A DNA stretch of 64,000 bases from a bacterium. Its GTDB lineage: Bacteria > Electryoneota > Electryoneia > Electryoneales > Electryoneaceae. How positions within the stretch are numbered: the stretch's first letter is position 1; every line of letters starts with the position of its first letter. The stretch spans positions 423,033 through 487,032 of the forward strand of contig JAHLLH010000002.1 of assembly GCA_020444265.1 (NCBI GenBank). The letters run 5' to 3'. Position numbers and translations under genes: made by a program. The notes below the pieces were generated by a model. It saw nothing but the letters and a program-made list of their open reading frames with translations. It did not search any database and was not told where the DNA came from. Of the stretch, positions 15,077 through 18,473 are shown piece by piece.

Positions 15077-15979
15077 TTATGCCCGCTGATCCAGGTGAAG
15101 CAGCAGGGTTGTCAATGCGTCTTCTAAAGGATGGTCAGTGGAAAGCAGGTGGTGACGTACTTGGTGATGGGCGCAGCCCGTCTTGATTGTTTCCAGGTAC
15201 TCATCCATCTGCTCTCGATACGCCTCCTTCACTTGCCACGGGTTCACTGCAATGGATGTGCCAGTCTCGAGACCCTCGAAACGACTCTCGCGTGTAAACC
15301 CGAAATCGAGCTCGCGTGGATCGAGGATCTGGAAGACGAGGACATCCTGTCCCTGGTGACGGAAATGATGGAGGCCCTCGAGAATGTCGGAGGGGTTGTC
15401 CAGCAGGTCGGAAATAAGGATAACAAGGCCACGGCGGTTCAAACGTTCCGCGACAGCATGCAGCACATCGCCCAGTTTCGTTTCACCGCTCGGTTCGTGG
15501 CGTTCCAGCGCGGCCCAGAGCTCATTTCGCCAGGTCAACGCGGACCGTGGTGTGAGCAGCTCACGAAGCTCTGTGTCAAACAGGCCCAGGCCGACCGCAT
15601 CCCGCTGGTTCAGCAGCAGGTAAATCAGCGAAGCAGCGAGGGTGCGTCCGTACTCAGCCTTGCTAACCTCCCCCCCGGAGGCAAAGCCCATCGAGCCCGA
15701 AAGGTCGAGCAGGATGGTGGCGCGAAGGTTCGTTTCTTCCTGGTATTGCTTGATGTAATGGCGGTCAGTGCGGCCGAGAACTTTCCAATCGATGTGTTTA
15801 AGAGGATCACCTGGCTGGTACATCCGGTGTTCGGCGAATTCGACCGAAAAACCATGGTAGGGACTGCGGTGCAACCCGGTCATATACCCCTCGACGACCA
15901 CCTTCGCTCGGAGCGAAAGGGGTTGGAGACGATGGATCAGGGTCGAGGAGACCAGCTCTTTTTCGGATGCACGCAACAT
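15077..15979 (-). CDS. DUF58 protein with VWA-like fold
   Basis: 300 residues. The DUF58 core is clear: EFAEHRMYQPGDPLKHIDWKVLGRTD at about residues 47-72, followed by a VWA-like strand with a DLSGSMG metal-site motif near 93-99. DUF58 proteins act with MoxR ATPases, often as metal-dependent chaperones. The MoxR gene lies 1.5 kb upstream on the same strand, separated by the redoxin selenoprotein gene and repeats, so the usual operon is split here. The N terminus has no membrane segment. Confidence 0.88.
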   Translation of the reverse strand: MLRASEKELVSSTLIHRLQPLSLRAKVVVEGYMTGLHRSPYHGFSVEFAEHRMYQPGDPLKHIDWKVLGRTDRHYIKQYQEETNLRATILLDLSGSMGFASGGEVSKAEYGRTLAASLIYLLLNQRDAVGLGLFDTELRELLTPRSALTWRNELWAALERHEPSGETKLGDVLHAVAERLNRRGLVILISDLLDNPSDILEGLHHFRHQGQDVLVFQILDPRELDFGFTRESRFEGLETGTSIAVNPWQVKEAYREQMDEYLETIKTGCAHHQVRHHLLSTDHPLEDALTTLLLHLDQRA

Positions 15980-16063
15980 GGGAGCAAGGTAAGGGGTCCG
16001 TGGGCCTCTACGCTTGGCTTCGGGTTGTCTTGGGGAGATGAGATGGCAGCCTGAACCAGATGA

Positions 16064-16852
16064 CTACCTCACATACACCACTCGTCTGGTTGCACTTCCC
16101 AGGGCTCCGGCATCAAGACGGAGGATGTAGATCCCGGACGCGCCGGATGGAGACCAGGTGATCTCGTGCTCGCCAGAGGAGTAGATGCGTGTCGCGAATG
16201 CATCGACTTGCTGTCCCGTGACGTTGTAGATCGATACACTCACCGGGGCGGATTCGCTTAGCCTGAAGCGCGCACGGAGTTGACTGTTGAAGGGATTGGG
16301 CCATGTACGGACCAACGAAAAGGCATCCGGTACACTGACTTCCGGCTCTGGTGCATCGGTATCCGCCAGTAACTCGTCAATGACTGCCCGATGGGCGGTG
16401 GCATTGAAGCCATGACGGCTGGATACAAGCTGCACGATACCTTCCTGATCGATGATGACGTACTGACGGTCTACTTGGTAGACATTCCCCACCTCGCTGC
16501 CCTGGGTCAGGAGTGGGAAAGTGGCTCCTCCCTGGTCGCCAAATCCTTCGACCGCGAACGTTGAGCCGTTCCACTGGTCAATGCCAAGCACTTGAACATC
16601 TTGTGATGGGTAGGCTTCATGGATTTGTGCCTGAACGGAACCAACCTGGTCCCGGCAGGCCGGTCAGGAATAGCCGAAGAACATGATGTAGACCACCGTG
16701 CCACGGTAGTCACTAAGGCTATGCGACATGCCGTCCGTATCACTCAACGTGAATTCGGGCGCAGTTTCGCCCACCTCTACCGCCTGTGCGGGGAGGACGG
16801 CAATGGCAAGAAGCAGAACGACAGAAAGGATCGAACCAATAGAACGGATCAT
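16064..16852 (-). CDS. Predicted selenoprotein: exported redoxin (UxxC) with C-terminal sorting domain
   Basis: One frame runs from ATG 16852 to 16064 (262 codons) with a single in-frame TGA at 16666-16664, codon 63. N terminus: a signal peptide ending VLPAQA, then a peroxiredoxin/thioredoxin-like domain (VGETAPEFTLSDTDG, YIMFFGYS). The TGA sits in GYS-U-PACRDQ, where relatives carry CxxC, giving Sec63 and Cys66. The frame then continues as a normal redoxin strand (VQVLGIDQWNG) and ends in a PNPFNS-type sorting domain of about 85 residues. A SECIS-like hairpin follows the TGA. Alternatives are a sequencing error or a decayed gene, but 199 codons remain clean after the TGA. Confidence 0.82.
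16629..16660 (-). promoter_or_regulatory. Bacterial SECIS hairpin downstream of the in-frame TGA
   Basis: Reading the mRNA after UGA, four-base offset: a GCCUG/CAGGC outer stem (5 bp), a C versus UU internal loop, then CGGGACC/GGUUCCG (7 bp, one G-U pair) closed by the pentaloop AGGUU. The loop begins 16 nt after the UGA, close to the 17 nt in E. coli fdhF, whose loop is AGGUCU. A loop G and this spacing are what SelB-dependent bacterial SECIS elements need. The bulged U of fdhF is not evident. Confidence 0.75.
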
Positions 16853-17033
16853 GCGTCACCCTTTTTATCAACGGGTTTCAGCGGGGTTGTAAGGGTATAC
16901 TAACTCTGGTGGTGTGCGTACAGCAAGGGGGGTGGTGGAGGTTGGGAGAGGAAAGGATGTGTGTGGGTGGCGTGGTTATCGAAGTTAGCCACGCATGCAT
17001 TCTGTCCGGGATCGGCTAGAACGCGCGACAGCA

Positions 17034-17192
17034 CGTCATTGCGAACGAAGCGAAGCCCAGTGCGGCAATCTGCTCTTGAATTGGGGGCGCTAGCCCTCAG
17101 TCGCCTTGCCAGTGAAGGTGGAACGGTGCCTGGCGGCACCGTAGGCAGGGTGTAGATTGCCAAGTCCCTTCGCTGCGGTCCTCGCAACGATG
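17034..17192. repeat. Dispersed inverted-repeat element, family 3
   Basis: Left end CGTCATTGCGAACGAAGCG at 17034, followed by GCGGCAATC; the right end is its imperfect complement (ATTGCCAAG, then CTTCGCTGCGG, then CTCGCAACGATG) ending near 17192. This is the widespread 'cattgcgag-gaagcaatc' type of intergenic palindrome. A half-copy lies at about 29363-29395. It stands immediately beside a family 2 element, and together they fill most of the 637-bp gap between the selenoprotein and moxR genes. The remaining part near 16853-17033 shows nothing recognisable. Confidence 0.65.
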
Positions 17193-17218
17193 TGATTTGA
17201 CGAGTTTCACTCGTAACC

Positions 17219-17405
17219 GTATCACCCCTGACTTGATCCGGGGTCTAGCATCCGGAGTTGAAGGCGTGCAGTCTGGTTCAATCCGGGTTGGTGCCGCTGA
17301 GGGCGTGCGAGGGGTGTTGATCCGCCTGGGCCTCTTGCCACGGGGCCGACGAGGCAACTGCGCCGCTCCATTCGAGGCTGGATCCCGGGTCAAGCCCGAG
17401 ATGAC
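17219..17405. repeat. Dispersed inverted-repeat element, family 2, copy 2
   Basis: The ends are GTATCACCCCTGACTTGATC and GGATCCCGGGTCAAGCCCGAGATGAC, the reverse orientation relative to copy 1 and more diverged. It is about 187 bp and has no reading frame of note. Confidence 0.7.
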
Positions 17406-17437
17406 AGGGTGGTCAACAAAAGTTGGTTGCTAAAGTG

Positions 17438-17471
17438 AAGAAACCCGGACAACAGGATTGCCCGGGCCTGA
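17438..17471 (-). terminator. Terminator after moxR
   Basis: On the minus strand, CCCGGGCAATCCTGTTGTCCGGGTTTCTTC forms a nine-base-pair stem followed by a T-rich run, 19 bases after the moxR stop. The sequence belongs to the same terminator type as at 19440 and 19651. Confidence 0.7.
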
Positions 17472-17489
17472 GTAGTACCAGTCCGCCAG

Positions 17490-18473
17490 TTACGGTTTCA
17501 CCGTATCCAGCAGCTTCTCGATGATCGCATCGGTATCAACTCCGTCGGCTTCGGCACGGAAGGTGCGCACGATCCGGTGACGCAGGACCGGTTTCGCCAA
17601 CGCGGTAACATCCTCCGCATCCGGCGTAGGACGTCCCTCGAGCACGGCTCGTGCCTTGGCGCCGAGGATAAGGTATTGCCCGGCACGCGGGCCGGCACCC
17701 CAGCGAATCCAGTCACGTACAAACTCATGGGTCGCGCCATTCTCGGGGCGGGTGGCACGGACCAGCTGGACGGCATAGTCGAGAACTGTATCGCTGATCG
17801 GCACACGACGCACCAACTCCTGCAACTCCTCGATCTCCTGACCCGTCAGGATCGATTCGATCTCCTCACGCTTTCCGCCGGTGGTGGAGGAGACAATCGT
17901 TCGTTCCTCGTCCAAGGTCGGGTACTCGACCCGCAAGTTGAACATGAAACGGTCAAGCTGGGCTTCAGGAAGCGGGTAGGTGCCTTCCTGCTCGATCGGG
18001 TTCTGGGTTGCCAGCACGAAGAAGGGTTCTTTCAGCCGCATGGTCTGGCCTGCCGCGCTCACCTCATGCTCCGCCATCGCCTGAAGCAACGCTGCCTGGG
18101 TCTTGGGCGGGGTACGGTTGATCTCGTCAGCCAGCACCACCTGCGCGAAGAGGGGGCCGGGGATGAATCGGAATTCCTTACGGCCTGTATCACGATTCTC
18201 CTCGATCACTTCGGTGCCGGTGATGTCGGTCGGCATCAGGTCGGGGGTGAACTGGATACGGCTGAAGCTGAGGTCGAGCGAATCAGACAGGGTACGGATC
18301 AGCAGGGTCTTGGCGAGACCCGGTACACCGACCAACAGGGCATGGCCACGTGCCAGCAGGGCGATCAACAGGTGGTCCACGACCTCTTCCTGCCCGATAA
18401 TCACGCGTCCGATCTGCTTTTTCAGTAGCGTACGTGCGTCCGCAATCCGTTTCAGTGTCGCGATGTCATCCAT
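17490..18473 (-). CDS. MoxR-family AAA+ ATPase
   Basis: 327 residues. Walker A is [10 protein letters not shown] (about 49-58), Walker [23 protein letters not shown], sensor 1 [26 protein letters not shown]. The lid domain (from about 205) ends with [15 protein letters not shown]. MoxR ATPases remodel or mature partner proteins together with DUF58/VWA proteins; the DUF58 partner is at 15077. The ATG lies 210 bases from the divergent lepB start, and the gap between them shows no clear promoter motif. Confidence 0.93.

Follow-up and report, generated by a model that had tools for sequence, protein, structure and literature searches.

Redoxins with a UxxC motif are already known among the 119 prokaryotic selenoprotein families listed in a 2026 review, for none of which a sorting domain is named (PMC13188914). 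The Prx-like UxxC selenoproteins of that list (PF00578, PF08534; Table 1, PMC13188914) share with the protein described here, which is encoded in a bacterial DNA stretch of 64,000 nucleotides (the window), an AhpC-TSA/redoxin domain by Pfam, the UxxC motif, one selenocysteine (Sec) and a bSECIS hairpin just downstream of it. The window protein differs from them by its probable N-terminal signal peptide and its T9SS type A tail. With T9SS type A cargo (TIGR04183) it shares a C-terminal PNPFN tail and the presence of PorU and SprA in the genome; the difference is that cargo of this kind was not found described as a selenoprotein in the literature searched. The original prediction for this locus held a selenoprotein with this type of C-terminal sorting domain to be, as far as known, undescribed, and this stands as far as the open-access full texts reach: no selenoprotein with a T9SS or other sorting domain was found in them, which does not prove its absence.

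By profile comparison, the closest solved chains were 2ls5, 3kcm and ResA. The nearest of these, the uncharacterized redoxin of PDB 2ls5, matched with E = 2.5e-22 over the whole domain and shares the CxxC site, yet it is a Cys form and the solved chain has no sorting tail. By sequence, the ResA/TlpA thiol-disulfide oxidoreductases (2h1b, 1st9, 3kcm) fall in the same domain family. Sec63 aligns to the N-terminal Cys of their CxxC and Cys66 to the second, but the window protein carries Sec for Cys as well as an extra tail, and the ResA proline in the PT ahead of the strand has no Pro counterpart in the alignment. Identity as ResA was rejected, since the NF002854 score of 59.1 bits is under the cut-off of 170. 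Residues 37-139 gave a weak match to the TUGYCR thioredoxin-fold (seleno)protein model NF053656, with which they share the thioredoxin fold; the motif of that family is unlike the one found here, and membership was rejected at 27.5 bits vs. a cut-off of 100. Within NCBIfam no redoxin or selenoprotein family exceeded its cut-off for the window protein, and only the generic tail domain passed. A single-sequence AlphaFold model had a mean pLDDT of 47.7, too poor for a fold search. The redoxin part forms a new offshoot of the Prx-like/TlpA-like UxxC selenoproteins, which are already known, and would fit a Prx-like thiol-disulfide or peroxide reductase.

The gene occupies positions 16064..16852 of the minus strand and ends with a TAG stop codon (16064-16066, minus strand). 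Its translation with TGA read as Sec gives a protein of 262 aa. As predicted, one TGA, at codon 63 (16664..16666, minus strand), interrupts a frame that is otherwise clean for 262 codons; retranslation placed this single U63 in the context FFGYS-UPAC-RDQ. It stands at the first position of UPAC, where the first Cys of a CxxC had been expected, and the relatives L068, L072 and L094 have Cys at this site. Cys66 (16655..16657, minus strand), presumed to be the resolving Cys of the UxxC motif, is invariant in the alignment. The mechanical list of open reading frames held nothing for 16064-16852 except a 175-aa fragment starting with GTG, so the earlier remark that a standard gene caller would break the gene is justified.

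MoxR and DUF58 genes usually adjoin. Here the selenoprotein gene separates the two, with a MoxR ATPase gene on one side and a DUF58 gene on the other (window 15077-18473, minus strand), and its upstream side (window 16880-17490) is a gap of about 600 bases with the repeat-like sequence gtcattgcgaacgaagcgaagc. A MoxR gene lies upstream of the selenoprotein gene in genome G002 (L124) too, while the neighbors seen in the remaining orthologs differ.

A search of 39 genomes of the same phylum yielded five orthologs, all from other genera; every one of them has a single internal stop, a TGA at the same codon. Their redoxin domains are 36-48% identical to that of the window protein, and the motifs at the Sec site read UPSC (L033), USTC (L034), UPAC (L035), UFIC (L036) and UGIC (L037). 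In all six proteins the redoxin domain is continuous on both sides of the TGA and the chain terminates in a PNPFN tail. The third codon position was the most variable before the TGA (0.38, 0.27, 0.64), after it (0.43, 0.38, 0.53) and in the tail (0.48, 0.39, 0.67), and this third-position excess in all three parts indicates coding constraint along the entire frame. These data bear directly on the possibility that a pseudogene or a sequencing error has produced the TGA in a Cys-type redoxin gene. The codon is one base away from TGC and TGT, and the window copy comes from a single assembly; against this, the same TGA recurs in orthologs of five further genera and in relatives belonging to other phyla, other stops are absent, and coding constraint persists downstream of the codon. 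As six genomes carry the same TGA, a base-call error is very unlikely, and we rejected both pseudogene and sequencing error as having a negligible chance of being correct, given the conserved TGA of the orthologs and the constraint past it.

The genome encodes the complete set of selenocysteine factors that was looked for: SelA (541.7 bits, cut-off 268), SelB (331.5 bits, cut-off 242), SelD (362.4 bits, cut-off 125) and a tRNA-Sec (SelC; 59.3 bits, cut-off 47), to which ARAGORN assigned the anticodon tca (UCA). SelD (L103, G000:C4:219402) is a selenoprotein as well, with its own TGA in CAGUASK. Elsewhere TGA acts as an ordinary stop, terminating 16/36 long ORFs in the window. A reading of the codon as Cys or Trp, through a change of the genetic code or general suppression, would agree with the alignment of residue 63 with Cys, but it conflicts with the use of TGA as a stop by those ORFs, with the dedicated tRNA-Sec, SelA, SelB and SelD, and with the SECIS that follows the codon. 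We rejected it because of the ordinary TGA stops in the window, and hold it to be extremely improbable.

The region 3′ of UGA63 folds at -20.2 kcal/mol into a hairpin that overlaps the coding frame (16629..16660, minus strand), with a 5-bp lower stem from +4 and a 7-bp upper stem; the apical stem-loop, CGGGACCAGGUUGGUUCCG, lies at 16636-16654 (minus strand). The loop AGGUU begins at +17 after the UGA, a spacing of 16 nt. Folding thus agrees with the hairpin that had been proposed from the letters, in its 5+7 bp stems, loop, start and spacing. Published bSECIS rules ask for a loop of 3-9 nt, a stem of 4-16 bp, a spacing of 16-37 nt and an MFE <= -7.5, and further for a G at loop position 1 or 2 (PMC13188914); the window hairpin satisfies every one of them. 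Strict SECIS-like hairpins follow 30 of the 2313 TGA triplets in the window (1.3%), and among its 22 long TGA-interrupted frames the selenoprotein gene alone has a strict bSECIS, which argues that the hairpin is not due to chance. Hairpin strength alone is not diagnostic, because 10/250 codon positions of the same gene score equally high. Across the six orthologs (n = 6 sequences), standard pairs occupied 95.2% of pair cells, compared with at most 52% pairing when the partner strand was slid as a control, and 3/7 pairs were changed on both sides, a covariation signal drawn from these six orthologs only. In ortholog L035 the stem contains a G-A mismatch and the fold is weak, and the Cys forms L068, L072 and L094 show weaker folding at the hairpin site. 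Taken with the factors present in the genome and the conservation of the codon, the hairpin strongly supports a predicted decoding of UGA63 as Sec. The central claim of the original prediction, an exported redoxin selenoprotein with UxxC, agrees with the sel genes, the conserved TGA, the Cys homologs and the bSECIS, and it is highly probable that this gene, which looks broken, encodes an intact exported selenium-containing redox enzyme.

Regarding export, residues 1-24, ending in AQA, read as a probable signal peptide (16781..16852, minus strand), and an N-terminal signal peptide is clear by eye in the alignment of the orthologs. Residues 27-141 (16430..16774, minus strand) form the redoxin domain (Pfam AhpC-TSA, PF00578; 60.7 bits, cut-off 26). 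From PNPFNS onwards, residues 184-259 (16076..16303, minus strand) score 36.3 bits (cut-off 23) against TIGR04183, the C-terminal sorting domain of T9SS type A, so that both parts of the predicted layout, a normal redoxin continuing past the TGA and a PNPFNS sorting domain, score over their cut-offs. Surface sorting had been proposed for the tail in general terms and could be narrowed: since the genome encodes the type IX sortase PorU (693.6 bits, cut-off 420) and the translocon protein SprA (537.3 and 255.1 bits, both within a single 2261-aa frame; cut-off 200), the tail is best taken as a true sorting signal of T9SS type A. Approximately 150 places in the genome match the query, nearly all through the tail part and many on large proteins, which indicates that tail-bearing proteins are abundant. 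The same selenoprotein might instead stay in the periplasm, its tail being vestigial or an alternative domain and not a T9SS signal in use. The tail has FlgD_ig-like similarity, and certain relatives lack it or have a dockerin in its place. We consider this improbable in view of the TIGR04183 match, found in the window protein and in 6/6 orthologs, of PorU and SprA scoring over their cut-offs in the same genome, and of the many tail matches, large proteins included. Signal-peptide-dependent export followed by T9SS sorting is supported by the domain and the machinery, and from the homology of the tail and the T9SS machinery we infer a surface location of the redoxin.

The following course of events would be consistent with these elements. 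SelB carrying Sec-tRNA(Sec) would bind the hairpin right after UGA63 and insert Sec, and the ribosome would continue to the TAG; this step is proposed on the basis of the machinery, the hairpin and the conservation. The N-terminal signal peptide would direct passage across the inner membrane. T9SS would then recognize the type A tail, as suggested by the tail, PorU and SprA, and PorU would cut it off, the redoxin being either set free or anchored on the outside of the cell. There, the protein may work as a thiol-disulfide or peroxide reductase of the Prx-like/TlpA-like kind, with Sec63 as the attacking selenolate and Cys66 as the resolving thiol. Such redox catalysis at the surface would probably shield envelope or surface proteins from oxidants.

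A wider search of 386 genomes revealed relatives with TGA at the site in at least two other phyla. Homologs have either TGA or Cys at this position. Genome G364 encodes two Sec forms, both T9SS-tailed (L092, L093), as well as the Cys copy L068, which has the same architecture as the window protein; one Sec copy and L068 lie inside one 17-kb stretch. The relative in G381 (L069) has UPFC and the tail, and that in G209 (L071) has TGA at the site. In the G095 relative (L070, also L126), a UGFC Sec redoxin, a type I dockerin replaces the T9SS tail (Pfam 35.3 bits, cut-off 22.9). A redoxin-domain tree placed the relatives of G364, G381, G095 and G209 in one clade with 99/95 support, within which the order is mostly unresolved, and the Cys form of G364 stands beside its Sec paralogs. 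The window gene belongs to a family present in several phyla and is not a lone oddity.

Larger redoxin UPxC proteins (L097, L098, L100, L102) combine extra domains, such as choice-of-anchor D, with a T9SS-type tail, and a tail resembling theirs is also present in L073 and L096. On domain composition, these larger UPxC redoxins are a second architecture of sorted selenoproteins. The set L040, L043, L049 and L057 comprises exported URQC or UPQC redoxins and short ULxC proteins (GLULACIGIG) near other UxxC redoxins; the short proteins are similar to the LULAxC motif of TsoA, and the one protein of this set that was tested had no NCBIfam match.

The novelty lies in the export architecture, a T9SS-tailed selenoprotein that recurs across phyla, together with one dockerin relative. 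It seems fairly likely that there is a whole class of bacterial selenoenzymes displayed outside the cell, on its surface, made up of UxxC redoxins with T9SS tails, in small forms and in large choice-of-anchor D forms, and once with a dockerin, over several phyla; the class would have been missed because gene callers cut such proteins at the UGA. The finding adds an export architecture that the present list of prokaryotic selenoproteins does not name, and it suggests that this family is concealed by standard annotation in many uncultured phyla. It would place selenocysteine chemistry outside bacterial cells, where the selenolate must stay reduced without cytoplasmic reductants.
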